Shown here: one piece after another, positions 3,925 to 29,842 of the stretch
How the letters are laid out: each line of letters opens with the position of its first letter
How positions within the stretch are numbered: the first letter of the stretch is position 1
Virus record (IMG/VR): IMGVR_UViG_3300033571_012668
Coordinates: 1 to 38,376 of that record
Direction: 5' to 3' (one strand)
DNA length: 38,376 nt
Origin: a virus
Program-made: the position numbers and the translations under genes
Notes under the pieces: generated by a model
The model's database searches: none
What the model saw: only the letters and a program-made list of their open reading frames with translations
What the model was told of the DNA's origin: nothing

Positions 3925-4536
3925 ATGGAAGAAATGTCAGCGATAATAGTCGCTTTTATCACTGGTGTATTAGGTCCAGTAATAGTGATGACTATAAAAT
4001 ACTTTATAGATAAAAAGTCCAAGAAAAAGGACATGATTGCTGACGCTTGTGAAGTTAGCGGAGCAGTAACGCTAAAGCTAGATGAGATAAAAGAAGAGTA
4101 TGGAGCAGACCGTGTATGGATAGCTCAATTCCACAACGGTGGTCACTTTTATCCTACTGGCAAGTCAATCGCCAAGTTCAGCGTCTTCTATGAGACAGTC
4201 GAAGTAGGCGTTTCTTCAATACAATCTAACCTACAGAACATTCCAGTAAACCTATTTAGTAAGTCCATAAATCACCTATTGAAGGATGATTTGATCCGTA
4301 TACCGGATTTTAAGGACGAGACTCAAGCAACTTACGGACTCAAGTATTTTGCAGAAGACAATGGAACTAAGTCCCAATACCTTTTTTCAATAAGAAGCAT
4401 AGACGGTAAATTCATAGGAGTATTCTCATTGGACTATACAAGAAGAAAGACTAGGCTTACTAACGAAGACATCATTGATTTAGAGATAAGTGCCGGTTCT
4501 CTTGGTGGAGTTCTAATGAATCATTTAACTCGATGA
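3925..4536 (+). CDS. Membrane-anchored GAF-like domain protein
   Basis: 203 residues. An N-terminal membrane segment spans about residues 6-28 (IIVAFITGVLGPVIVMTIKYF), followed by a lysine-rich cytoplasmic boundary (DKKSKKKD). The remaining 165 residues read as a GAF-type sensor fold: WIAQFHNGGHFYPTG in an early strand, then SQYLFSIRSIDGKFIGVFSLDY as the hairpin strands and a last helix. The pattern is typical of GAF domains but no ligand residues can be identified. No output domain follows, so it may bind a host partner or ligand at the inner membrane. It overlaps the next gene by an ATGA junction. Fold assignment is moderate; function unknown. Confidence 0.6.
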   Translation: MEEMSAIIVAFITGVLGPVIVMTIKYFIDKKSKKKDMIADACEVSGAVTLKLDEIKEEYGADRVWIAQFHNGGHFYPTGKSIAKFSVFYETVEVGVSSIQSNLQNIPVNLFSKSINHLLKDDLIRIPDFKDETQATYGLKYFAEDNGTKSQYLFSIRSIDGKFIGVFSLDYTRRKTRLTNEDIIDLEISAGSLGGVLMNHLTR

Positions 4537-11357: not shown

Positions 11358-12490
11358 TAGATTAAGATAAGATCTAGCTCTGACTCTGAAAAATACTTGT
11401 TTATCAGCTTATTAAAGACTTCTAGATTGGTCTTAGGGTCGATTGTAGAAAGAACTGAGTATGCGTCGTTCACGTCCTTTATGAGCTTTATCTTAATTCT
11501 ATGTTGAGAATATGTTTTTATGAGGTCGGAGATAAACTTTGACCAGAGAAAAACTGAATATCCCTTCTTTATCAACTCAATTGACTGTCTCTTACCTGCG
11601 ATATCATTGTCGAAAAAGACCTTTGCGTTCTTTTTGGTAAGAAGGTTTTCAAGAAGAAGGTTGCTTTTACTGACACCGGTAGTCGCTATACAGTTAAATA
11701 TGAATAGAGAATCGAGCTGGCCTTCTGTGATTATGACGTCCTTTGTGAAGTCGACATTAAGAACGTTAAAATAGTTATTTAGGGAATCTACTTCTTGCAT
11801 GACTTCTTGACTCATGCCCTTCACAAGTCCATTCTTACTGAACTCAGCATAGTTCTTAATTAGATACTTGGGTCCTTCGACCTCGCCTATTCTACGAATG
11901 GCAAAACCTAAAACTCTATCTGACTTATAGTCAATGTTGAAGAGATAGACCTTATCGTCCCTAGAATCGAAGTAAGCAATCTTGTCAAAGTCAGGAAGAA
12001 CGTCTAGGTTTCTAGAAATTATGAAGTCATGTACTTGACTGCCTTCCTCAGCCTCTGAACAAGGCTTTAATGAGAACCTTACTGCTAACTCTTTTAATTT
12101 CAATAGGCTGCTTGCCGCATTAAGTATGATGAACTTTTCAAAGAGCGATCCTTTCTTCTTTGAGCGAGAAGCTAGCTCAAACTTTGGTTTTTCTTGAGCC
12201 AATGAAGGCACACCTAACGAATACTTGGTGGCGAACGATGAGACAAAACCCGTAAGATCAGTCTTGACTCCACAGCCATCGTTGTAACACTTATAGGTAT
12301 GAGTTGTGATGTAGAAGTTTCCTCTTTTCTTTTTTGGATCCTTCTTAGAGTCTCCACAATAGGGACACGCAAAGTTCAACTTATCTCCTGAATCGAAGAT
12401 CTGTTGCTTTAGATTTGAACCTGGAAACTTTTTCTTAAGCAGGTCCTTAACGAAGTCCTGTATGCTGTAACTCACTAAAAAATCAAACAT
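11357..12490 (-). CDS. 61: DnaG-type DNA primase, gp61-like
   Basis: 377 residues. A zinc-binding domain has C42-x2-C45 (CPYCGDSKKDP) and C68/C73 (YKCYNDGCG). A TOPRIM catalytic domain follows, with E256 in EGQLDSL and D294-x-D296 (FFDNDIAG). T4 gp61 (342 residues) has the same order and makes RNA primers at the replication fork with the gp41 helicase. The gene overlaps the polymerase fragment gene (12483-13910) by 8 bases, so both are translated from one message. A late-promoter-like element for the downstream head gene overlaps its 3' end. The missing companions (clamp, loader, helicase) must lie elsewhere. Confidence 0.88.
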   Translation of the reverse strand: MFDFLVSYSIQDFVKDLLKKKFPGSNLKQQIFDSGDKLNFACPYCGDSKKDPKKKRGNFYITTHTYKCYNDGCGVKTDLTGFVSSFATKYSLGVPSLAQEKPKFELASRSKKKGSLFEKFIILNAASSLLKLKELAVRFSLKPCSEAEEGSQVHDFIISRNLDVLPDFDKIAYFDSRDDKVYLFNIDYKSDRVLGFAIRRIGEVEGPKYLIKNYAEFSKNGLVKGMSQEVMQEVDSLNNYFNVLNVDFTKDVIITEGQLDSLFIFNCIATTGVSKSNLLLENLLTKKNAKVFFDNDIAGKRQSIELIKKGYSVFLWSKFISDLIKTYSQHRIKIKLIKDVNDAYSVLSTIDPKTNLEVFNKLINKYFSESELDLILI

Positions 12491-13910
12491 TTTCTTCGAT
12501 TAGCTCGACAACTGCTTCTCCCTTTTCTTTCTTTTTAGTAAGTCTCTTTATGTACTTTTCCAATTCCATCTTAGGAACTATGACTGTGTCTAACCCATAT
12601 TTAGTCAAGACCGAAAGATATTCTGGGAAATCAGTTTCTTCTACCTCTGCTTCTGGATTTCCAATTATTCTCCAAAACTTTTCGGGAACCTCTTCGTGTT
12701 CTAATGAGTCTTGGTTTACAACATATAAAGGATAAAGGTTAGCTTCGTCTTCTGCTTTCTTTCCCTTAGCCTTCACCATCTCGACCGCTCTTTTTAGGTT
12801 TTGATCTAAGGAGCTAATCTTCATTGCAGTCAACAGACGATTCATCGGTTCGACGATTAAGGTAAAGAACTGCGAATCGAAATCCATTCCTGGTGCAATC
12901 TCGTTAGGAAAGTTTCCTGGAACGTATGCAAAGACATCAAACTCATGTTCGTTTTGAGAACAGTAATAAAACTTGATCTTATCCTTCTCTCTAATCTTGG
13001 GATAACGATTGATCAGTCCAGTCTTTATCAATAGGTGATTGTAATACACTGAAGCTCTAGGATAGATCGATATTCCTTTCTTTACTTCGCATCGTGCCTC
13101 ACTAACCACGTACTTTTCATAAACCCTAACGTTATAGTTGAAGGCTAGTTCGTCTGTACTTAAGAGCTTAGCCTCATCCTTAAGTGCTTGAAGTCTTGGG
13201 ATCACGTCATTTTCTAAATTAAGGCGCTTACCTCGCTCTAAGATAAATTCAGTAAGAGCAGTTAACTTCTTTCTTGCCCATATGGGATAGGAACCTTTAA
13301 TGGGCTCAAGTCCCTTAATCACTAGATACCTTTTTTCTTTCGGAATGGTCTCATAGCTAGGATTGGGCTCGTATGCTATCTTAATCGCATAGTTTTTCTT
13401 TTTCAACCATATCCCATGTTCAGAAAGGTTTTCAAGCTTAAACTTAAGACGATTATTTGTGTTGAACAGCTTTCCATACTTATCAAAACACTGATCAAAG
13501 TAATTAGACAAGCGGTGACGGTCGATGTTTATACAAAGGTTCATTACTTCATCCTTAGTAAAGTCTGCACCTTGTATCGATTCAATGGCCGAGTCAAACT
13601 GCACGTAAATGGAATCAGTATCAGTATAAATCGCAGCTTCGTCTTCTACTTTAGCTATCGTGTATTGAGATATTCCTAAAAGTTCATGAAGCTCTGTGTC
13701 TAGATGCCACTTCTCTAAAAAGTAATGATTTACTGCTTTGATCGAAAACTTGATAAGGTCTTGACCTTGCAAAGTAATTGACTGGGCTATGTTTGGGTTA
13801 TAAAAATAGAACCATTTGTTTCCGAAGGCTCCATATATCGAGTTAATGAGGAGCTTTATAGCGTTCTGTTTTAGATCTAGCTTCTTTATTTTTTTTTCTA
13901 CGTCTTCCAT
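12483..13910 (-). CDS. 43: Family B DNA polymerase, C-terminal part (split polymerase)
   Basis: 475 residues. The N-terminus contains motif B almost at once: K19-LLINS-IYG (residues 19-27), then the palm motif C Y95-T-D97-T-D99-S (YTDTDS). Thumb-domain and C-terminal sequence follow. The exonuclease domain and polymerase motif A are absent. T4 gp43 is 898 residues and puts motif B near residue 560, so this protein starts about 20 residues before it. Upstream is a 117-base divergent promoter region and then an unrelated plus-strand gene, so the N-terminal half is encoded elsewhere and the two parts must associate. A similar split between motifs A and B is known in the Methanothermobacter PolB. 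The gene heads the minus-strand block and overlaps the primase gene. Confidence 0.88.
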   Translation of the reverse strand: MEDVEKKIKKLDLKQNAIKLLINSIYGAFGNKWFYFYNPNIAQSITLQGQDLIKFSIKAVNHYFLEKWHLDTELHELLGISQYTIAKVEDEAAIYTDTDSIYVQFDSAIESIQGADFTKDEVMNLCINIDRHRLSNYFDQCFDKYGKLFNTNNRLKFKLENLSEHGIWLKKKNYAIKIAYEPNPSYETIPKEKRYLVIKGLEPIKGSYPIWARKKLTALTEFILERGKRLNLENDVIPRLQALKDEAKLLSTDELAFNYNVRVYEKYVVSEARCEVKKGISIYPRASVYYNHLLIKTGLINRYPKIREKDKIKFYYCSQNEHEFDVFAYVPGNFPNEIAPGMDFDSQFFTLIVEPMNRLLTAMKISSLDQNLKRAVEMVKAKGKKAEDEANLYPLYVVNQDSLEHEEVPEKFWRIIGNPEAEVEETDFPEYLSVLTKYGLDTVIVPKMELEKYIKRLTKKKEKGEAVVELIEENV

Positions 13911-15448: not shown

Positions 15449-17359
15449 ATGAAAAAACTGTTAATTTTATTAACATTGGTGTGCGCCGTTTTTGTCGGCT
15501 ACTCACAAACGGGACCTCCCGCCCCAAGCAACGGGGTATGGGCCATTATTGATACCAACTATCAAGTAGGTCCGACTTCAACTGGGCATACTCAAGCTCG
15601 ACTTACTCTTAAAAATACTACCTTAACTAAATACGCAGGTGTTCAGTTTAGAGTTTTTTACGATAACGTTGCTTTTACTAATGCCACAGTTGCTCTATTG
15701 GGATCCAATGCAAACTTGGATTTTCAATACTCTACAAACACGGCAAACGGTTACATCACAATGACTCTAGTCTATACTGGAGCCAGTGCTACCTATACTT
15801 TAGTAGATGGCGAAAGGTTTGAAATAGACTTTACGCATGCAGTTGAAGCGACTTTTAATAACTTACCTTCAATTTCTAACTTGACTTGGACTGGTGCACA
15901 GGCCTATTCTCCATATGCTGCCAAGCAGGACGGTATTGATACTACCTTAAACCTTCATAACTATGGAGGACAGTTCGAGTTTCAACAACTATCCTTTCAT
16001 GGAACATTCGTTAACACGACTGGAACACCGGCAAAGAATCTTAGTTTAGCCTTAGAAAGAAAGCCATATAACAGTAACACTTGGGCACAACACTCAACTT
16101 ACTTGACTGACATAAATGGTGACTTTAACTTTACTGTAAACTTAGACACTTCTTATTGGGACGTTCGTTTGGCAATCCAAGGAGACTCGATGGATGTAGG
16201 TAACGTAATCACCGCGACCGATGCACAATTGATAAACCAATGGGTGTTAGGAATAGCTACTCCTTCAGGATTCGACTTCTTTACTGCAGACGTTAACAAT
16301 TCAAACAACGTCACCATATCTGATGTATGGGGAGTATTCGGTAGAGTTTCTGGTAGATTCTCACAATGGCCGAATAACGTTAAAGACATCAAGTTCTTTA
16401 CGCCTGCTGAATACACAGCAATCAACGGCTCAGCTAACAACTTGACTGCTACTTATGCTGGGGTAACTAACTGGTACCACAACATCCTAGCAGGTCAACC
16501 TGATTCTATCGTAAGATACGTATTGGTTCCTGGTGATGCCAACGGTACTGGTTACAACATGGCTCGCCAAATCCCTATTGAGATCCTAATTGATCCTACT
16601 CCTGGAATAGAGTCACAAGTATATCACGTGATCGATCATTCAGTAGAATATGACTTTCCTACTGAGAGCATTGAAGTAAACGTTCCTAGATTATCAGTAG
16701 ACGCAGGAAGTCTAGTAAACCTACCGGTAAAAGTTTTCACAAACGGTGTAGACCTAGCTTCATTACAGTTTGGTCTTATCTACGATCCTGAAGTATTAGA
16801 GTTTAAGGGAATCTTCTCTAACTCTAACGCGATGAAGTGGATAACTTACGTAAACCCAAATGACGGTCAAGTCGATTGGGGAGGATATGATCCTACTAAC
16901 GTAGAGAATCCTATCAAGGACGGTGAAGAAGTAGTAAACCTACAGTTTCTAGCGCTTCAACCACAAGACGAATGGTTAGAAAGCCCGCTCTATACTACTA
17001 GAAAATTCGCAGGAGACGTTTCATCTAGCGACCTTAGTCTAACTCCGACTAACGGAATACTTCAAGTATTGAAGGCAGTAGGCGCTGGAGTGATTGATGA
17101 TAACTCAATCGAATTGTTTCCTAATCCATTTAATGAAGAGGTGACTATGACCTTTAAGGTGAATGCGATGACTGATGCTACACTAGCGGTATACGACATA
17201 TATGGAAAAAAAATAGTAACTGTCCTTTCAGGCCCTCTACCTGAGGGACAGTTTACATACACAACTAATCTTGGAAAACTAGCAGATGGAATCTATGTTG
17301 TGACTTTAACGTCAGACAACGAGACTCCGCTCTTTGAAAAGATAGTAAAACAAAAATAA
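15449..17359 (+). CDS. Exported cohesin/dockerin-like protein with T9SS C-terminal sorting domain
   Basis: 636 residues. Signal peptide 1-19 (cut after YSQ, Bacteroidota style). Residues about 28-150 resemble a cohesin-like beta sandwich (GVQFRVFYDNVAFTN). Residues 180-245 are a carboxypeptidase-regulatory-like or SD-type module. Residues 246-303 are dockerin-like, with two EF-hand-type segments (MDVGNVITATDAQLINQWVL and ADVNNSNNVTISDVWGVFGR). A second cohesin-like domain lies at 407-540 (NLPVKVFTNGVDLASLQFGL, YDPEVLEF). Residues 551-636 are a clear type A T9SS sorting domain (LFPNPFNEEV, VYDIYGKKI, ADGIYVVTL). Such domains direct export through the outer membrane and attachment to the surface. 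It heads the envelope operon. A phage gene with this domain implies a T9SS-bearing host. Domain calls: T9SS and dockerin strong, cohesin moderate. Confidence 0.85.
   Translation: MKKLLILLTLVCAVFVGYSQTGPPAPSNGVWAIIDTNYQVGPTSTGHTQARLTLKNTTLTKYAGVQFRVFYDNVAFTNATVALLGSNANLDFQYSTNTANGYITMTLVYTGASATYTLVDGERFEIDFTHAVEATFNNLPSISNLTWTGAQAYSPYAAKQDGIDTTLNLHNYGGQFEFQQLSFHGTFVNTTGTPAKNLSLALERKPYNSNTWAQHSTYLTDINGDFNFTVNLDTSYWDVRLAIQGDSMDVGNVITATDAQLINQWVLGIATPSGFDFFTADVNNSNNVTISDVWGVFGRVSGRFSQWPNNVKDIKFFTPAEYTAINGSANNLTATYAGVTNWYHNILAGQPDSIVRYVLVPGDANGTGYNMARQIPIEILIDPTPGIESQVYHVIDHSVEYDFPTESIEVNVPRLSVDAGSLVNLPVKVFTNGVDLASLQFGLIYDPEVLEFKGIFSNSNAMKWITYVNPNDGQVDWGGYDPTNVENPIKDGEEVVNLQFLALQPQDEWLESPLYTTRKFAGDVSSSDLSLTPTNGILQVLKAVGAGVIDDNSIELFPNPFNEEVTMTFKVNAMTDATLAVYDIYGKKIVTVLSGPLPEGQFTYTTNLGKLADGIYVVTLTSDNETPLFEKIVKQK
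17218..17253 (+). other. Strong hairpin inside the T9SS domain coding sequence
   Basis: Arms 17218-17225 and 17246-17253 (AACTGTCC/GGACAGTT) and 17228-17232 and 17240-17244 (TCAGG/CCTGA) pair to give 13 bp, with a 2 by 1 internal loop and a 7-base loop. No T tract follows, so it is not a normal terminator. It could pause transcription, process the message or be chance codon choice. Confidence 0.55.
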
Positions 17360-17371
17360 CCCTATAAAACA

Positions 17372-17707
17372 ATGTCAGAGGAAACACAAGAAACAAACGA
17401 TGGAACTTGGACAGGTCTTAAAAAGACTATCATTGGAACTCTTACAACAGTAATTGCAGGCGGAGGCGTCTGGGTAAGTACAATGATATTTGGTGGAGGA
17501 GACGAAGAGCCTAAGGAGGAGACCAAGACTGAACAGTCTGGTGGACAAGCGCCGGTGATCGTAAACGTTCAACAAAACCAAGAGAACAAGCAAAAGGTTG
17601 AGAACGGTGGAGGAACAGTTGTTCGTGAAAGAATAATTGAGAGACCAGCTCAACAGACTCAGCAACAACCTGAAAAACCAAAGAAGGTTGAAGAAGAGTC
17701 TTGGTAA
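17372..17707 (+). CDS. Small single-pass membrane protein
   Basis: 111 residues. A short acidic N-terminus precedes a hydrophobic segment at about residues 18-42 (IIGTLTTVIAGGGVWVSTMIFGG), followed by a polar Glu/Gln/Pro/Lys-rich tail (residues 45-111) with no predicted fold. It lies 12 bases after the T9SS-protein gene and 18 bases before another membrane protein. The layout of short N-terminus, one membrane span and long charged tail could fit a spanin-like or holin-accessory protein, or a tether for the operon's surface proteins. No homologue recognised. Confidence 0.65.
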   Translation: MSEETQETNDGTWTGLKKTIIGTLTTVIAGGGVWVSTMIFGGGDEEPKEETKTEQSGGQAPVIVNVQQNQENKQKVENGGGTVVRERIIERPAQQTQQQPEKPKKVEEESW

Positions 17708-17725
17708 AAAAAATAAAAACTAAAA

Positions 17726-18106
17726 ATGAAATTAAAGGATTTCTTAAAAGCAGACCCAGATTACGTTAAAGTAGAAGACAAGAATCGCTTCTACTTCATG
17801 TTACAACAAATGCAAGCAAACAGATGGAGAATCACAGCAATCATACTTGGACTGTTCTTCTTTATTATCCTAGGAATCAACGTAGGAGTCTTTACTGAAA
17901 TTAAAGTAAGTCAAGACTGGAAGGAAATGCTTCTTATCTTATTAGGAGCTTTCGTTGGTAACTTGAACAAAGTAGTAGACTATTGGTTCAACTCAGAAGA
18001 CAGAGACAAGATGTTGATTCAAAAGGTTGACGAAGAGGACGGAGTCTCTCTTTCAAACGTTGCTGATCCTAATGCAGCTGACGAAACTAACGAAATGGAA
18101 GGATGA
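17726..18106 (+). CDS. Two-span membrane protein, holin candidate
   Basis: 126 residues. The N-terminus MKLKDFLKADPDY is charged. Two membrane segments are visible: about 35-56 (ITAIILGLFFFIILGINVGVF) and 67-88 (EMLLILLGAFVGNLNKVVDYW), followed by a charged, acidic cytoplasmic tail. Small two-span proteins of this form, with a conserved LGAF/LGAL plus V-x-x-W-F in the second span, are widespread in phages and often annotated as holins. The gene overlaps the CsgG-like gene by an ATGA junction. A lysis role is inference; it could instead support the envelope operon. Confidence 0.6.
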   Translation: MKLKDFLKADPDYVKVEDKNRFYFMLQQMQANRWRITAIILGLFFFIILGINVGVFTEIKVSQDWKEMLLILLGAFVGNLNKVVDYWFNSEDRDKMLIQKVDEEDGVSLSNVADPNAADETNEMEG

Positions 18107-18846
18107 AAAAACTAGCGATCATTACATTCGCACTGATTCTATTTAGTTGTAAAACTCTACAGGCCCAGCCTCCACAGAACGGTGGAGGCATAGGCTCTGT
18201 CAAGACAGAACAGTACCAAGCGGATTTCGAAAAGAAACAAGACATTGACGTCGTGGCTAATTACACAGACACGATACAGGTTCCTATTCAGTTATTGAAG
18301 ATTGGAATCAACTCTGAGCTTTATGAGATGTATCCGGAGCTCAAAGACAAAAGAGTAGGTCTGGGTGTGACTAACATTGTGATCGAATACTTAGAATACA
18401 CCAATCGCTTCATATTTACTGAAGAGAAAGAAGACATCAAACAACGAATGATAGCCCAAGACAAGGCATCAGATAAGGGAATATCTTCAAACGAAATAAA
18501 CGTAAAAGGTAACGTTGTCCTTGCTAAATACTTTGTTTACATTGAGGTTTATGACTTCTCAGTTTCTGAAGACGAAGTCGTAAAAGTAAACGGACAACAG
18601 ACGATAACTCAAACGACTAGATTAGGATTACAGATAAAGTTCGTAGATGCTGAGACCAGCCAAGTAATAGTAGGTTCAGGGCTAGGTGAAGCAGTTACGG
18701 TAAAGACCGAATCGATATTGGGAGACATCTCAGACGAAGTAAAATTCAATCAATCTACTATAGGAATAAGCACAAAAAAGGCTCTTGAGACAGCATCGTC
18801 TAGAGTGGTCACAAGATTAATAAGCAAAGGTGTATTTAAGAATTGA
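18103..18846 (+). CDS. CsgG-like outer-membrane lipoprotein
   Basis: 247 residues. A signal peptide with a lipobox-like end (ILFSCKT, Cys at residue 16) marks a lipoprotein. The body carries the features of the CsgG/curli-secretion family: VTNIVIEYLEYTNRFIFTEE, VLAKYFVYIEVYDFS, then the paired strands TTRLGLQIKFVDAETSQVIV with SGLGEA, and a final helix ALETASSRVVTRLI. CsgG forms a nonameric channel in the outer membrane that exports curli subunits. It overlaps genes on both sides (ATGA at 18103; a TTG start overlapping its stop at 18843). Its likely client or partner is the barrel-ended protein immediately downstream. CsgG family is fairly sure; curli export is not shown. Confidence 0.78.
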   Translation: MKKLAIITFALILFSCKTLQAQPPQNGGGIGSVKTEQYQADFEKKQDIDVVANYTDTIQVPIQLLKIGINSELYEMYPELKDKRVGLGVTNIVIEYLEYTNRFIFTEEKEDIKQRMIAQDKASDKGISSNEINVKGNVVLAKYFVYIEVYDFSVSEDEVVKVNGQQTITQTTRLGLQIKFVDAETSQVIVGSGLGEAVTVKTESILGDISDEVKFNQSTIGISTKKALETASSRVVTRLISKGVFKN

Positions 18847-20498
18847 AACTAAAACTACTCATATCGTTTGCTCTGCTAATAGTAGGGACGTTCAGTCTTA
18901 CTGCACAAAGCTATAGTTATAGCTATGCTGATCCCTGTACTGGGAATACACAAACGATAACGGTTCCAGTAAACGGCGAAGTAACTGTCGGTTACTATGG
19001 ATTCGTAGAAACCTTTTCATACAACGAATTTAATAACGGAACATTTGATACGTGGACAAACACGGTATTTTCACAATTTGAAGGTTCTCCATGTGCAGAG
19101 ATAGTTGGACTAAGCAGCACAGTCAGCATAGCACAAGATGCTGCGTTCAACGTCATGGGAATCTTAAACTCGTTAACTGCTTTATCTGACTTTGCGGGTG
19201 CATCTGGCGCTACTGACATGTTGACTGGAAGTATAGGCGCTGCTTCTAATTCTTCGGGTTCTTCCGAAGATGAAGAAGAAAATAACGAAGGTAATGGAAG
19301 CTCAAATAATCAAACAGGCCAAACCTCTACTGGATCAAATCAGGTCGGCTCAGGAACCAGCAACGGTGAAGGAACTGGCGGATCAACTGGAGAAAGTCCT
19401 GCTGGAAACGGAGTGGCAACTTCAACTCAAACTGGATCAAATGAAACAGGAGGTACATCGACTGGCCAGTCTGTAAATCAAGGAGGAAGTGCTGAAAATT
19501 CAAATAATCAAACAGCTAATGGAAATTCTAATCAAGGTAACGAGTCTAATGGTTCTGGGAACACTGGTGGTAATGGGAATGGTGGGACTGGTAATGGAAC
19601 TAGCGAAACATCGCAAGAAGGACAAGAATCAGGGGTAAATAATAACAACAGCGAAAATAATCAATCCCAAAATGAAAGTGGAAATAATGGCTCCAATAGC
19701 GGCGGCAGTGGTTCTTCTAATCCCGGTTCTTCTGAAGGTGGTGGACAGCCTGGAGGAGAAGAAAGCACAACGGAAGAAGCAGCAGAAGGAGGAGGACAAA
19801 CCAACATAACTGCTGGTGCAAACAAGACTATAAACGCAAACAAAGAGGGCGGAGGTGCTCCAACCGTGATTGCGTCTAGCGATTTTGTCGGCTTCAACTT
19901 TAAAAACTCTGAGGTGACTACTGGTCTTAAACTCACAGGAGGTTATCATTCCTTAAGGTGGGACGGATTAAGAGCTAAGGGAGTACTAGTAGATTATGTC
20001 TCTGCGATAAAGGGCCCTAATGCAACTACTTATTATGCTTGGGTAAAACCTAAGTCTATCTCGATGCTCTCACTGACTGGGACTTTCGGTTTTGAGGGTA
20101 GAGGATCGATGTATGGAACAATTGCAGGTGGACAGATGCTAATGTTCCCGAAGGTTAAAAACCTAAAGGCCGTCTATATGGGAACAATCTCATACGGCCA
20201 GGTATACAAGACAGAGTTCTTAGGTAGCGCATTGATCGCAGGAGGAATGTACGACCTAAAGTTATTAAAAAGAATAGACGTTAAGATAATGGGTCTCTTT
20301 GTGTATGTCCCATATATTAGCTATTACAACGATTTGGTGTTAAAGTCTCCATATGTAGTGATTCCTAGTTTAGGAACCAACATTTCGATAACGAAGAGAT
20401 TTAAGTTTAACATCAATGCTGGTGGGGCATGGGCGATAAAGGAGAACGCTTTAAATTATACAATAACATGTGGAACAAGATTATTAGTTGGGCAATAG
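18843..20498 (+). CDS. Exported protein with long Ser/Gly/Asn linker and C-terminal beta-barrel-like domain
   Basis: 551 residues, TTG start overlapping the CsgG-like stop. Signal peptide 1-21 (SLTAQS). Residues about 22-138 are a small folded domain with Cys pair (DPCTGN, SPCAEI). Residues about 140-330 are a disordered Gly/Ser/Asn/Thr/Glu linker with an acidic start. Residues 345-551 have alternating amphipathic strands (GFNFKNSEVTTGLKLTGGYH, SMLSLTGTFGFEGRGSMYG, VYMGTISYGQVYKTEF) ending in TCGTRLLVGQ, typical of an outer-membrane barrel. Genes coupled to CsgG are often accessory or substrate proteins. It could be a surface-exposed partner of the CsgG-like channel. Its stop overlaps the start of the lectin gene. 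Confidence 0.7.
   Translation: MKLKLLISFALLIVGTFSLTAQSYSYSYADPCTGNTQTITVPVNGEVTVGYYGFVETFSYNEFNNGTFDTWTNTVFSQFEGSPCAEIVGLSSTVSIAQDAAFNVMGILNSLTALSDFAGASGATDMLTGSIGAASNSSGSSEDEEENNEGNGSSNNQTGQTSTGSNQVGSGTSNGEGTGGSTGESPAGNGVATSTQTGSNETGGTSTGQSVNQGGSAENSNNQTANGNSNQGNESNGSGNTGGNGNGGTGNGTSETSQEGQESGVNNNNSENNQSQNESGNNGSNSGGSGSSNPGSSEGGGQPGGEESTTEEAAEGGGQTNITAGANKTINANKEGGGAPTVIASSDFVGFNFKNSEVTTGLKLTGGYHSLRWDGLRAKGVLVDYVSAIKGPNATTYYAWVKPKSISMLSLTGTFGFEGRGSMYGTIAGGQMLMFPKVKNLKAVYMGTISYGQVYKTEFLGSALIAGGMYDLKLLKRIDVKIMGLFVYVPYISYYNDLVLKSPYVVIPSLGTNISITKRFKFNINAGGAWAIKENALNYTITCGTRLLVGQ
19260..19800 (+). repeat. Low-complexity Gly/Ser/Asn/Thr coding tract
   Basis: About 180 codons are biased to Gly, Ser, Asn, Thr, Gln and Glu, with imperfect repeats of SN-x-QTG and GNGGTGNG type. 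The tract lacks predicted structure and links the N-terminal domain to the C-terminal barrel-like domain. Long reading frames in other phases across it are compositional artefacts. Confidence 0.8.
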
Positions 20499-22177
20499 TG
20501 CTGTTAGCGGCAATTGACTTGAATGCACAAAGTGTGATTAGCCCTAGCGCAACATCATTCCCACAAAGCACATCGAATCAAGTAGTCAGCGGGTTCTCTG
20601 TGACTGGATTCAATTCAACTTCGACCCTACTAATAACGATAGGTCTAGTAAACCCTCCTTCTGGAACAACACTACGCCTAAACACGACAACAGGGGCAAC
20701 CGCGAGTACAGGTTATAACTTGACTTCTAACTTTACTAGGATAAGCTTTACTGGAACTCAAGCGAATGTTAATAACGTATTAGCATCATTAAGACTAAAT
20801 ACTGGTGCAACTCCAGGAAACGTTTACATTGCTGTTACTGCTACTGAGAATCCAGTTGGGTATTTTTATCTACCATCAAACGGTCACTTTTATAGACCGA
20901 TTTCGACTGGAGCATTCTATAATGCAGCTAAATCAGCGGCTGCTGCAACCACATTTAAAGGACAGTCAGGTTATCTAGTAACCATTACTTCAGCAGATGA
21001 GGATGCTTTCATATACAACAACGTACCTCAGTCACAAATTTGGTTTGCGCTATCCGATGCTGCACAAGAAGGATATTGGAGAATAGATGCAGGTCCAGAA
21101 GCAGGAACTTTGATTAAAACTCAAAATGGACAATTTGCTGGAAATATAGCTGGTCAATATAACAATTGGGCCGGAGGAGAACCTAATAACTCTGGAGGTG
21201 AGCATTATGCAGTAACCAAATGGAACGGGTCTCAATGGAACGATTTACCTAATGGTTTTTCATGTCCTTATGTAATTGAATACGGTACATGGACAGACCC
21301 AGCCAACCAAACGTTTACTGATTTCTTTACTGGGTTCGTGACTCATCAAATTTCTTGTACTGCAGCAAACGCACCTGCTGCACCTACTGGAGTCAATGGA
21401 AGTCGAATGTTGGCTGGAACGGTTACTCTGTCGGCTACTCCACCAGCCGGTTCTACTGTAGACTGGTATGCAAACTCAACTGGAGGAAACGTTTTGTCAG
21501 GAGGTCTAGGTGCCACTACATATACTACGCCAAGCATATCAAACACGACGACTTATTTTGCTCAATCTAGGAATTCAACAAGTGGTTGTGTTAGTTCCAC
21601 TAGGACTGCAGTAGTAGCAACGGTCAACTACCCGATTCCTTTTACTTATTCTGGTAACATTTACAATTCACAAGCAGTCGGAGTCCCAAACATACAAGTA
21701 AAGCTTTTCTATAAACTAAAGTCGGCAAGCACATACACTCTATTTCAAACGTATACGACAAACATACTGGGTGCCTTCTCAATAACTACTACCTTTGATA
21801 TTGCGTTGTATGATTTCCAAGTGACGGTAGATGCTCTCAGCGTATCTAATCCTATCGTTTCAGACGCAAACTTTTTCACAAACAAGGTTTTAAACCAAAG
21901 CTTCATTCCTATCGATTACTATAGAATGGATGTAAACGGTAATTCTAACTTGACTGTGACTGACATTCTTTTGATTTACAAGAAGATGAATGGCTTTTCT
22001 TGGACAAATGGAATGCCGACTTATAGAATATTTACTCAACCCCAATGGACTGCGATCCAATCGACTGGAGGAAACCCAGCGCTAGTTTTTCCAGGATCGC
22101 AAAGCATTACTTTGACGAATCCCACAGCCGGTGGATCGTCTTCTTTATACATAATAAAAACAGGACACGCTAACTAA
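20468..22177 (+). CDS. Exported C-type lectin-like protein with Ig-like and dockerin-like domains
   Basis: 569 residues from the ATG at 20468, chosen over the upstream in-frame start at 20429 because it begins a proper signal peptide (residues 1-21, cut near LNAQ). Residues about 22-125 form a beta domain. Residues about 131-263 are a C-type lectin fold with E238-P-N240 (GGEPNN, the mannose-type calcium motif) and W257-N-D259. Residues about 303-388 are an Ig-like domain typical of secreted Bacteroidota proteins. Residues 390-455 match the SD-type module of the 15449 protein, and residues 455-510 match its dockerin-like part (YRMDVNGNSNLTVTDILLIY). It ends SSLYIIKTGHAN, where the 15449 protein has IVRYVLVPGDAN, so it stops before the cohesin and T9SS parts. 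Likely a surface sugar-binding partner of that protein. Confidence 0.82.
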   Translation: MWNKIISWAIVLLAAIDLNAQSVISPSATSFPQSTSNQVVSGFSVTGFNSTSTLLITIGLVNPPSGTTLRLNTTTGATASTGYNLTSNFTRISFTGTQANVNNVLASLRLNTGATPGNVYIAVTATENPVGYFYLPSNGHFYRPISTGAFYNAAKSAAAATTFKGQSGYLVTITSADEDAFIYNNVPQSQIWFALSDAAQEGYWRIDAGPEAGTLIKTQNGQFAGNIAGQYNNWAGGEPNNSGGEHYAVTKWNGSQWNDLPNGFSCPYVIEYGTWTDPANQTFTDFFTGFVTHQISCTAANAPAAPTGVNGSRMLAGTVTLSATPPAGSTVDWYANSTGGNVLSGGLGATTYTTPSISNTTTYFAQSRNSTSGCVSSTRTAVVATVNYPIPFTYSGNIYNSQAVGVPNIQVKLFYKLKSASTYTLFQTYTTNILGAFSITTTFDIALYDFQVTVDALSVSNPIVSDANFFTNKVLNQSFIPIDYYRMDVNGNSNLTVTDILLIYKKMNGFSWTNGMPTYRIFTQPQWTAIQSTGGNPALVFPGSQSITLTNPTAGGSSSLYIIKTGHAN

Positions 22178-22767
22178 TGAAAAATTTACTATTAACCTTA
22201 TCAATCTTATTTTCAATTAATGTTTGGTCGCAAAAGACCTTACGCGATTCGATCTATATCAAATCAGACATATTTGAAATAGTCTATTCTGAAAAGCTAC
22301 AACAACCGAAATTCATTAGGTACACAGTACAGTGTCCAAACGGTGATGCCTCTAGAAAAGGAATGGACTTTTATGTTTGTGATTCAATCCTTACTTCAGA
22401 TAACCTAGACTACGTAAACAACCAATACGACAAGGGTCACCTAGCGCCGGCTGCTGACTTTAACTGTAATAAGGAGATGCTGTATAAGACCTTTAGCTAT
22501 CTAAACTGTTCCCTCCAACAGGAAAACCTAAATCGAACTACTTGGAGACTTCTTGAAGCTAGAGAAAGAGAGCTGGCAAAGACTCATGGAAAAGTGGTCG
22601 TTGAGATAAGATGCGTATTTTCTAAAAGTTCGATTGTTCTCCCAAGCGGAGCGACCATTCCGGACGGATATTATAAGACCATAAAATACGGAAAGTCAAC
22701 AGAGAAGTATTACTTTAAAAACGAGAAACCTCTTTCTACTGATTACACAAAATATAAGATAAAATGA
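22177..22767 (+). CDS. Secreted DNA/RNA non-specific endonuclease
   Basis: 196 residues. Signal peptide 1-18 (SILFSINVWSQ). The catalytic motif Y84-D-K-G-H88-L-A-P (YDKGHLAPAADF) is the D-R-G-H-type signature of the His-Me finger NUC1 endonuclease family; a further Asn region (YLNCSLQQENLNRTTW, residues 109-124) fits the metal-ligand Asn. The family cleaves DNA and RNA without sequence preference and needs a divalent metal. Its start overlaps the stop of the lectin gene (TAATGA) and its stop overlaps the next gene. In the periplasm or outside the cell it could degrade nucleic acid released at lysis or incoming DNA from competing phages. Role is inference. Confidence 0.85.
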   Translation: MKNLLLTLSILFSINVWSQKTLRDSIYIKSDIFEIVYSEKLQQPKFIRYTVQCPNGDASRKGMDFYVCDSILTSDNLDYVNNQYDKGHLAPAADFNCNKEMLYKTFSYLNCSLQQENLNRTTWRLLEARERELAKTHGKVVVEIRCVFSKSSIVLPSGATIPDGYYKTIKYGKSTEKYYFKNEKPLSTDYTKYKIK

Positions 22768-23216
22768 GAAAACTAACATTACTTTTTGCAATAATCTTGA
22801 TTATAATAGACATAAATGCTCAAGAATGTGTCTATGTCGATTCAGTATATTCGACTGCAAAGCTTAGAGAGATGGGAAATCGTGACATCAAGTTTGGAAT
22901 AAGACAGATAGTAGAGGACGAACTCTCTGAAAAGTATTGTTTGGGCGAAGGTTCAGATATAGACGTGGAAGTATTCTATTTTGGAATACCTAAACACTCG
23001 ATCCGAATCGTAGGAGTAGAAAAGACTAATCAGATAACACAAGTCGGAGTTAGGTTATATTACAAAGGAGTCAAGTATGAGGGAATCGGAGAATCGGATG
23101 TTGAAGTTAGAGCAGTCATGATAGAACTAGTCGATAACAAGGTTCCATTCGATAAGATGACGGTCTCATCTGCCCTAAAAAAAGCAATACATGAAGCAGT
23201 TACTAGCATGCCTTAG
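22764..23216 (+). CDS. Small exported protein, distantly CsgG-like
   Basis: 150 residues. Signal peptide 1-19 (IIIDINAQ). The mature part begins ECVYVDSVYS and includes IDVEVFYFGIPKHSIRIVGV, TQVGVRLYYKGVKYEGIGES and a C-terminal helix (ALKKAIHEAVTSM). The order of strand, short loop, strand with a GxGxS turn and final helix recalls the CsgG-like protein encoded at 18103, but sequence identity is low. It overlaps the nuclease gene by ATGA and the zincin gene by 26 bases. It may be a periplasmic partner or chaperone for the operon. I would not name a function. Confidence 0.6.
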   Translation: MRKLTLLFAIILIIIDINAQECVYVDSVYSTAKLREMGNRDIKFGIRQIVEDELSEKYCLGEGSDIDVEVFYFGIPKHSIRIVGVEKTNQITQVGVRLYYKGVKYEGIGESDVEVRAVMIELVDNKVPFDKMTVSSALKKAIHEAVTSMP

Positions 23217-23655
23217 TTTACTAATCACACTGACTGTCTCTGCTCAAATAAAGGTGGACGATATCGGTGAGGGTTGGAAAGACAGCGTAAATAGAGCGAT
23301 AGAAAAGATCAAGGAGTCAGACCCTTTTTATCATGTCTTTTTAAACGCAAACTGCAATCACATAAGCTACACGATGGCCAGCTTCTCAACGACTGAGGGC
23401 GATTCGACCATACTCATTTCTACTAGACAGATGAAGGCAGGATACGTAAACGATATCGCCTCTACGTTGGTCCATGAATCTCTACACCTATATTTGAAAA
23501 GGCTGGGTTTGAAACTAACTGAACGTGAAGAAGAACTCATGTGTTATAGGTTTGAACTCATGTTTCTATTTAGGGTGATAGATGTGGAGGCATGGCTAAT
23601 GTCTCACGCAATAACTATGATCAACCACTATTCTATTGAAGATGAGAGGAAATAA
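23191..23655 (+). CDS. Secreted zincin-like protein (HESLH motif)
   Basis: 154 residues, signal peptide 1-18 (LLACLSLLITLTVSAQ). H95-E-S-L-H99 is a zinc-metallopeptidase HExxH motif, followed by acidic residues at 111-115 (EREEEL) that could give a third ligand. The region before it (DSTILISTRQMKAGYVNDIA) resembles the edge strand and helix of small zincins. The fold is truncated relative to classical metallopeptidases, so enzymatic activity is not certain. It is the last gene of the envelope operon. A role in opening the cell wall, processing surface proteins or lysis are all open. Confidence 0.65.
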   Translation: MKQLLACLSLLITLTVSAQIKVDDIGEGWKDSVNRAIEKIKESDPFYHVFLNANCNHISYTMASFSTTEGDSTILISTRQMKAGYVNDIASTLVHESLHLYLKRLGLKLTEREEELMCYRFELMFLFRVIDVEAWLMSHAITMINHYSIEDERK

Positions 23656-27985: not shown

Positions 27986-29842
27986 ATGGCCGGTATAAAC
28001 CATTTAAAAGAACTTCAAGAAAAGAAGGGCGACACCTTTTTAAATGGTCTTCTTAACAATTACGTGATAATTAGTGAGAAGATCAGTGGAGCTTTCTTTG
28101 GACTTAAGAAGACAAAAGACGACACTTTCAAGTATTTTAAGAAGAACGGAGAGATCACGTATGTCGATAGAGTCCTCATGCAGTATTACAATCCAGCGGT
28201 TAGCTTCTTTGAGAAGATGCCTCAACCTAAGAGAGAAAGAATACCTTCTAACTTCTTTTTTGGTTTTGAATACTTTAATAGGGGAGACCATAGCGTTTCA
28301 GTAGGCAGACCCGTAAAAAACAACTTAGTCCTATCTTACATACACAGACTTGATGATTCTGGAAACGTGATTGAGACCTTACAATCAGGAGAGCAGCTAT
28401 CTAAATGGGCAGAATACTTGGAAGTAGAGGCGCCACCGATCATATTTGAAGGACGTCTGGACGACGAACAACGTAGGGAGATATTGGACTTTGTCTATTC
28501 AGACCAATCTCAATTAGAAGAAAAGTTTAAGACTAGATCCTTTACTAAACACATAATAGCTATCCTTTGTCCTGAAAAGACTGCTCAGATCGGAGATCGT
28601 GAGATTGGGACCCTAATCTTTAGGTTCTATGGATTAGAAAAGGGAGAAGAGACTTCTTATCTTGCCAAGATCGTGGACCCTCTGTTTCAAAACAAGAAGC
28701 AAAAGGGGACTGAGAAAAACATGTCACAGGATTACATATGGTTGATAGTAATCGATCTAATGAATCACTTTGAGATGTATCAGGTTGATGAGTTAAGAAA
28801 TTGTGTGCAAGACGGATCTAACTTTGATCAAAAGTACATCAACCTAATCAATAAGATCTATAAGGATTTTATGAAGGAGTATTCTGTAAAATACGATGGT
28901 CTTGAACTTGAAGTGCCTGAATACTTACAGCGCCCAGAGTTTGCTTTAAACCTACCGTTAGTAGGAGACGACTCTGTGATATCCCTAATCAAAAGAAGCA
29001 CAGTAAACGCAGAGATCTATAAGGTTCTCTTAAACTTCTTTAGAAAGACTAGAAAAAGATCTAGTTCTGGCTTCTTTACGCCTGAACTTGTATCACAACT
29101 AAACCTTACTGTTCAAAAGATCAGAAACATAGTCTTAGGCGATGCAATCTATGAGGGACTATTCCCTAGCTTTAACCAGTTTATATCTTCACCTAGCGAA
29201 GGACTTATGCTTAGCGAAAAGGAATACGCAGAACAGGATGAACCCAAAAAGGCTACCAAGGTCAACATAATGATCGGTCAGTTTCAGCCAGTAACTAGGG
29301 GACACCTAGAAGCTGCGGCTAGACTAAAGGCAAAGAACGGTAAACCGGTAGTATTGATCGCGATTCACACCGGCAAAAGGACAAAAGGGACTCCAATATC
29401 TAAGAAGTTCGTTAACCTGATGCTGAGCAAAACCCAACAGACAAATCCAGATCTCATAAAGGATTATAGGATAATCGAAAGCGGCTTGATAGACGACGTG
29501 ATAAAAGCTCTGACTCCAGACTACGCCCCGATGCTTTGGGGAACAAGCGGACGTCGCTTACACGACTATGCAATACAGTTTGATTACATCAAAAAGAGAA
29601 ATATTCCTCTTAGAATATCAAAAGATTTTAGCCTAATTGAGCTGCCTAGTTTAGTTAGATCAGACGATGTTTTAGCTGCGATAAAAAGTTCAGATTTTAA
29701 CGAATTTAAGAAGCTGACACCGGAAATCATACATTCTGAGTTCTTTAACCTACAGATGGAGATGGGAGTTTCTACTCCAGTAAACGAAACAAACGACAGC
29801 AGATTAGTCGATAAAAACTTTGATAAAGAAGAACTTATTTGA
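27986..29842 (+). CDS. Fusion of ligase-like domain and HIGH-type nucleotidyltransferase
   Basis: 618 residues. The N-terminal domain carries ligase-like motifs: K32-I-S-G35 (SEKISGAFFGLKK, motif I, KxxG), FFGFEYF (residues 91-97, motif III), a motif-IV-like EIGTLIFRF (206-214) and motif V A227-K228-I-V-D-P. The closest family resemblance is T4 Rnl2-type RNA ligase (REKIHG). The C-terminal domain (residues about 425-590) is a cytidylyltransferase-like fold with G431-Q-F-Q-P-V-T-R-G-H440 and ISKKF, as in NMN or pantetheine-phosphate adenylyltransferases. KVP40 and others encode separate NAD-salvage adenylyltransferases; the fusion to a ligase domain is unusual. It follows the tagged gene 27449 by 6 bases. 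Confidence 0.75.
   Translation: MAGINHLKELQEKKGDTFLNGLLNNYVIISEKISGAFFGLKKTKDDTFKYFKKNGEITYVDRVLMQYYNPAVSFFEKMPQPKRERIPSNFFFGFEYFNRGDHSVSVGRPVKNNLVLSYIHRLDDSGNVIETLQSGEQLSKWAEYLEVEAPPIIFEGRLDDEQRREILDFVYSDQSQLEEKFKTRSFTKHIIAILCPEKTAQIGDREIGTLIFRFYGLEKGEETSYLAKIVDPLFQNKKQKGTEKNMSQDYIWLIVIDLMNHFEMYQVDELRNCVQDGSNFDQKYINLINKIYKDFMKEYSVKYDGLELEVPEYLQRPEFALNLPLVGDDSVISLIKRSTVNAEIYKVLLNFFRKTRKRSSSGFFTPELVSQLNLTVQKIRNIVLGDAIYEGLFPSFNQFISSPSEGLMLSEKEYAEQDEPKKATKVNIMIGQFQPVTRGHLEAAARLKAKNGKPVVLIAIHTGKRTKGTPISKKFVNLMLSKTQQTNPDLIKDYRIIESGLIDDVIKALTPDYAPMLWGTSGRRLHDYAIQFDYIKKRNIPLRISKDFSLIELPSLVRSDDVLAAIKSSDFNEFKKLTPEIIHSEFFNLQMEMGVSTPVNETNDSRLVDKNFDKEELI

Follow-up and report, generated by a model that had tools for sequence, protein, structure and literature searches.

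Phage genes for T9SS cargo were already reported in 2019 and 2020 (PMC6949934, PMC7468147). In the cryoconite phage Cryophage, described in 2020, three variable genes located in flexible islands (endoglucanase, GH39 and PA14) encode T9SS type A domains; use of the host T9SS was proposed, and the authors called these phage domains a unique occurrence (PMC7468147). In gut phages, T9SS sorting domains are found near the crAss-BACON ORFs, whose BACON repeats lie beside head genes (PMC6949934). Genes of Porphyromonas gingivalis phages are tailored to the Sec pathway of Bacteroidota, their products having Q at +1, and the text of the paper that describes them makes no mention of T9SS (PMC10367356). 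Lastly, pelagimyophages and Melnitz, which infect SAR11 and OM43, encode csgG and csgF, and the available portions of the papers describing them reveal no T9SS cargo (PMC7029224, PMC9004378). In the following paragraphs we compare these systems with a locus in which a conserved T9SS-cargo gene shares a cassette with a gene for a CsgG-fold protein.

The stretch of DNA analysed (the window) runs to 38,376 bases and is a virus record of IMG/VR; coordinates refer to it unless another record is named, and the T9SS-cargo gene, its domains and its cassette are on the plus strand. It encodes T4-type portal, head closure and baseplate-wedge proteins, together with PolB, primase, PhoH and helicase, and on the basis of this T4-type gene set the window is a fragment of a T4-like phage and not host DNA. 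The view that the gene of interest is a phage gene, taken in an earlier reading made from the sequence alone (the sequence-only reading), is thus borne out by its neighbours. The structural genes form a block at 27-38 kb, apart from the T9SS-cargo gene; adjoining them is a gene (27986-29842) whose 618-aa product has a cytidylyltransferase-like domain around residues 428-533. The PolB ORF (12483-13910) matches only the C-terminal part of its family (phrog_262 positions 500-841). No N-terminal half lies next to it, a hint that the polymerase is split or rearranged.

The T9SS-cargo gene (15449..17359) is a complete ORF of 636 aa beginning with ATG, and no PHROGs family matches it. Its product comprises, in order, a signal peptide, a cohesin fold, an X/dockerin-like module, a cohesin, and a T9SS type A sorting domain (CTD) at the C-terminus. 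The sequence-only reading had placed the gene at 16250-17359; this stretch is open and reads as described, and represents the C-terminal 370 residues of an ORF that starts at 15449. Its assignment of the type A domain and of the phage context stands, and its interpretation is supported in part; it had overlooked the signal peptide, the cohesins, the dockerin-like module and the surrounding cassette.

The CTD occupies positions 17114..17356 (residues 556-636) and is predicted to form a seven-strand beta sandwich. The motifs by which it had been recognized are all present, namely LFPNPF at residues 556-561, VYDIYGKKI at 581-589 and ADGIYVVTL at 612-620. A T9SS type A profile search had been proposed as a check, with a non-significant score to count against the domain; the scores are significant and above the cut-offs for both TIGR04183 (NCBIfam; residues 556-635, 41 bits versus a cut-off of 23, E 1.4e-10, model positions 1-72 of 72) and PF18962 (Pfam; residues 556-632, 41.8 bits versus 27, E 1.3e-10). 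In an AlphaFold2 model of the protein built from 65 relatives (mean pLDDT 71, pTM 0.52) the seven strands of the CTD have a pLDDT of about 75-90. T9SS CTDs are Ig-like sandwiches. The nearest CTD fold is that of PorU (6za2_A, Z 10.3, rmsd 2.4 over 86 residues), with which unrelated Ig-like domains in the PDB tie to within Z 1; PorU is the sole T9SS CTD among the top 50 VIA matches, a result which excludes nothing. Phmmer with the CTD alone found no match in the PDB, and the family profile matched a sorting-domain protein there (8glj_D) with an E value of 0.015. The loop glycine before strand 4, G586, sits in the VYDxxG loop and is present in 65/65 relatives. For RgpB to be secreted, the loop joining strands 3 and 4 must have its glycine, and CTDs may be species-specific (PMC11285876). 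By our own reading, G586 probably corresponds to the RgpB residue. In three of 14 phage records searched (L111, L112 and L113, the phage records of L019, L085 and L025) another large ORF carries a CHU_C C-terminal domain above the Pfam cut-off. CHU_C is a gliding-motility-associated C-terminal domain in the style of T9SS type B, and given these matches, type B cargo may also occur in those three phages.

Relatives were recruited with peptide patterns from the N-terminal half of the protein. Scanned with the first alignment, IMG/VR yielded at least 263 contigs that encode one, of which the best 80, up to 290 kb in length, were kept. Eighty-five ORFs are full-length; the ten others are eight truncations at contig ends and the two halves of the protein in the isolated phage immuto. 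Apart from that split version, the C-terminal region is missing only from ORFs truncated by a contig end. The alignment comprises 65 full-length relatives, including one from a metagenome-assembled genome (MAG) contig, and both TIGR04183 and PF18962 match in 65/65 of these (E 0.01 or better), a figure which covers the full-length ORFs of the best 80 contigs, so that distant relatives devoid of the CTD may lie outside it. Invariant throughout the alignment are Q20, P558-N559-P560, G586, G600, Y604, G614 and Y616, and K634 is found in 62 of the 65. The CTD evolves faster than the body of the protein (mean pairwise identity 0.45 versus 0.59-0.72), and its pooled dN/dS of 0.135 (17 independent pairs; 0.09 for the body) indicates that it is under purifying selection. 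Its presence in every full-length relative aligned, together with this dN/dS, means that the match is not due to chance. Furthermore, distances in the CTD correlate with distances in the rest of the protein (r 0.86; 0 of 999 permutations), so that the CTD is no recent graft. Each of 13 phage records possesses one CTD above the cut-off, and in immuto it is on ORF15.

Cellular homologues, sought in a single pattern scan that may miss distant host-side relatives, are limited to one full-length and one C-terminal-only match. The former is on a 16.5-kb contig (L015) binned in a Sphingomonadaceae MAG, and is accompanied by the same cassette; the contig probably strayed into the bin from a phage. As a rule, T9SS cargo belongs to bacteria (PMC5445135), and host DNA or an assembly artefact could in principle cause a bacterial T9SS gene to be taken for a phage gene. 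This is, however, extremely improbable, since the gene and its cassette are present in many independent virus contigs of up to 290 kb as well as in an isolated phage genome, and the sole full-length cellular match has the cassette too; the first two of these observations led us to reject host contamination. A search of the 14 phage records for SprA returned no match, and is uninformative because the control genomes gave no signal either.

Among the phages in INPHARED, only the Flavobacterium phages immuto match the T9SS-cargo protein. Flavobacterium is a genus known for T9SS, and the host of immuto (MW353176) is Flavobacterium sp. LMO8. As in the window, immuto ORFs 12-19 contain the same gene set, and the cohesin ORF bears the CTD. 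Unlike in the window, the immuto homologue (about 32% identity) is split into two ORFs (L014:11598-13422), each with a signal peptide, and the nuclease and lectin genes lie upstream. ORF14 represents the N-terminal part, while ORF15 has its own signal peptide, a cohesin, and a CTD scoring over the cut-off. The split gene sits beside replication genes. The annotation of ORFs 12-19 goes no further than hypothetical or cohesin domain-containing, and our literature search found no paper detailing the immuto genome.

The Sec signal peptide of the T9SS-cargo protein (15449..15505, residues 1-19) is predicted to be cleaved between GYS and Q20, the latter residue being invariant in 65/65 relatives. 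Using a heuristic based on the hydrophobic core and cleavage site, which favours Q, signal peptides were assigned to seven of the 43 genes in the window; the seven are contiguous within 15449-23655 and all have Q at +1. The heuristic also flagged an N-terminal membrane anchor at 3925, which was set aside by eye. Independently of the heuristic, the alignments of four cassette families show an invariant or almost invariant Q at +1. The presence of Q at +1 in the seven exported proteins of the window agrees with the Bacteroidetes Q-rule, by which Q occupies +1 after signal-peptide cleavage (PMC5837995).

Two independent conserved signals, the signal peptide and the CTD, strongly suggest that the phage protein is exported, and because the sorting domain is conserved, use of the host T9SS appears to be the best reading. 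We propose, with a probability of roughly 0.75, that this protein is a T9SS type A cargo made during infection, which leaves through the host Sec system and T9SS and is then displayed by the infected cell. Against this speak the faster evolution of the CTD, the tie of its fold with unrelated Ig-like domains and the species-specificity that CTDs may have. The signal peptide would route it through Sec, whereupon signal peptidase I would expose glutamine 20; the CTD would then take it via the T9SS of the host to the outside of the cell, and there the CTD would be cleaved and the cargo anchored by the host, as normally happens. The protein might instead be a component of the virion, decorating the capsid or tail, in which case the CTD would be another Ig-like domain. 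Such sandwiches are common on virions, and generic Ig-like domains score level with PorU as matches to the CTD fold. Q20 of the signal peptide is invariant, however, and a virion protein put together in the cytoplasm would have no need of it; the gene is remote from the structural block, and in immuto the replication genes are its neighbours; and the profile matched is a curated T9SS profile, not that of a phage family. We consider a virion role most unlikely.

The body of the T9SS cargo is built of modules resembling those of scaffoldins. The first cohesin-fold domain (15530..15988, residues 28-180) is detected by structure only, the predicted model matching 3ul4_A with a Z of 13.0 and an rmsd of 2.9 over 139 residues. 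An X-like beta domain (residues 181-250) precedes the dockerin-like module (16199..16354, about residues 251-302), which possesses a single canonical calcium loop, DVNNSNNVTISD, at residues 281-292; as judged by eye, this is the second loop, and the first is degenerate. The canonical loop pattern is present in 49/65 relatives, where 0.18 are expected from shuffled sequences. A family profile search of the PDB found the dockerin 4uyp_B (E 0.00018). The match to type I dockerin (PF00404) is below the gathering cut-off (18.4 bits versus 22.9, E 0.0025), and for this reason the module is named dockerin-like. The second cohesin (16658..17032, residues 404-528) is recognized by PF00963 (residues 408-508, 44.8 bits versus a gathering cut-off of 24.1, E 1.9e-11), which matches in 60/65 relatives. 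The best Foldseek match of the model is a Coh-X-Doc scaffoldin fragment, and residues 26-306 have the cohesin, X, dockerin-like order of the CipA scaffoldin (PDB 4fl4, 3kcp). The phage protein differs from CipA in its sequence (12-16% identity), in having only one canonical calcium loop, and in carrying two further domains, another cohesin and the T9SS CTD. Cohesin and dockerin modules are also found outside cellulosomes.

The T9SS-cargo gene heads a syntenic cassette (15449-23655), the products of which are mostly exported; the counts that follow are out of 35 contigs with enough room, near-duplicates included. Immediately downstream is a gene for a small protein (17372..17707; 35/35) with one hydrophobic, probably transmembrane, segment as read from the sequence, followed by that for a small membrane protein with two such segments (17726..18106; 8/35), which is holin-like by appearance only and has no family match, the holin families included. 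The next product (18103..18846; 35/35) has a signal peptide and the fold of the outer-membrane pore protein CsgG: Foldseek matches it to 4uv2_P (E 1.4e-8, prob 1.00), membrane hairpins included, and by VIA the top eight matches are all CsgG (Z 12.1; mean pLDDT of the model 67.6). No CsgG family appears among the Pfam matches up to E 1 (47 members), nor any CsgG chain among profile matches to the PDB up to E 10, and since sequence profiles do not detect CsgG we call this protein CsgG-fold rather than CsgG. The neighbours, the products beginning at 18843 and 22764 among them, show no significant family match by sequence to the partners CsgA, CsgB, CsgE or CsgF.

The exported protein at 18843..20498 (35/35) consists of a conserved N-terminal domain, a long Ser/Gly/Asn linker and a beta-rich C-terminal part, features consistent with a probable outer-membrane protein. 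It is followed by an exported lectin (20429..22177; 33/35), likely starting at 20468 (MWNKII), with C-type lectin and Ig_7 domains, an X/dockerin-like C-terminal module and no CTD. Its tail is homologous to residues 175-365 of the T9SS-cargo protein (hmmsearch profile, E 2.5e-23). In this lectin and its relatives the heads vary (C-type lectin, Ig_7, Laminin_G) ahead of the conserved X/dockerin-like tail, as would be expected of exchangeable binding modules. The remaining members of the cassette are an exported DNA/RNA non-specific endonuclease (22177..22767; PF01223, E 4.6e-21; 14/35), an exported 150-aa protein with no recognised fold (22764..23216; 35/35), and an exported protein with a HESLH metallopeptidase-like motif (23191..23655; 34/35), the match of which to SprT-like is not significant (E 0.029). 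Profiles of the products beginning at 18843 and 22764 gave nothing significant or coherent against the PDB and Pfam.

The adjacency of a CsgG-fold pore and small membrane proteins raises the question of a cassette for lysis or egress, in which the pore, the holin-like proteins and the nuclease would come into play during lysis, with the T9SS protein aiding release or the handling of debris. A lysis role was proposed for the phage CsgG in Melnitz (PMC9004378). The protein with two hydrophobic segments, however, occurs in only 8/35 contigs and matches no holin family, the cassette is without an endolysin, and adhesion is a better fit for the lectin, cohesin and dockerin modules, so that we regard this explanation as improbable.

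Displayed on the cell, the T9SS cargo may act as a scaffold or adhesin, in superinfection exclusion or as an aid to lysis. From the modules we tentatively suggest, in a more weakly inferred step and with some doubt, that the cohesins hold dockerin-bearing partners such as the downstream lectin, giving the infected cell an adhesive or shielding layer. A full cellulosome-like scaffold, in which the T9SS-anchored cohesin protein recruits dockerin-bearing variable lectins and the result is sticking of cells or exclusion of rivals, is rather unlikely. In such a scaffold the lectins, which have a signal peptide and no T9SS tag, would leave the periplasm either through the CsgG-like pore of the phage or carried along by the cargo; the separation of the dockerin half from the cohesin-CTD half in immuto fits a non-covalent assembly of this kind. 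Superinfection exclusion, as proposed for the Cryophage cargo (PMC7468147), would follow the same route of export with no scaffold, the displayed protein itself shielding or blocking a surface receptor. The surface-coating architecture of the model and the variable lectin heads of its partner are congruent with this, but the body of the protein is strongly conserved and not diversifying; we hold it to be possible, if somewhat unlikely.

Our literature searches found no work joining CsgG, phage, Bacteroidetes and T9SS, and none joining cohesin, dockerin and Flavobacterium phage; we have found no prior description of a conserved cassette pairing phage T9SS cargo with a CsgG-like pore in Bacteroidota-type phages. 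The window resembles the P. gingivalis phages in its Sec-adapted genes with Q at +1 (PMC10367356), and pelagimyophages and Melnitz in its CsgG-fold pore, small cluster and want of an obvious curli fibre gene (PMC7029224, PMC9004378). It differs from the latter in that CsgG is recognized by fold only and neither CsgF nor CsgE is found by sequence. With the crAss-BACON ORFs it shares the sorting domain, and no common architecture with the window protein was seen (PMC6949934). As in Cryophage, type A domains occur in a phage gene, but in place of three variable genes there is one conserved gene with a cohesin/dockerin-like body in a syntenic cassette. The sequence of such a gene could mark large phages, as yet uncultured, whose hosts possess a T9SS. 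As the cargo is linked to both a CsgG-fold pore and a lectin, and a cultured phage has it too, remodelling of the infected cell's surface by phages through the Bacteroidota secretion machine becomes testable. The phage T9SS cargo noted earlier consists of variable accessory genes; in the present lineage, with at least 263 contigs, it is conserved and under selection.
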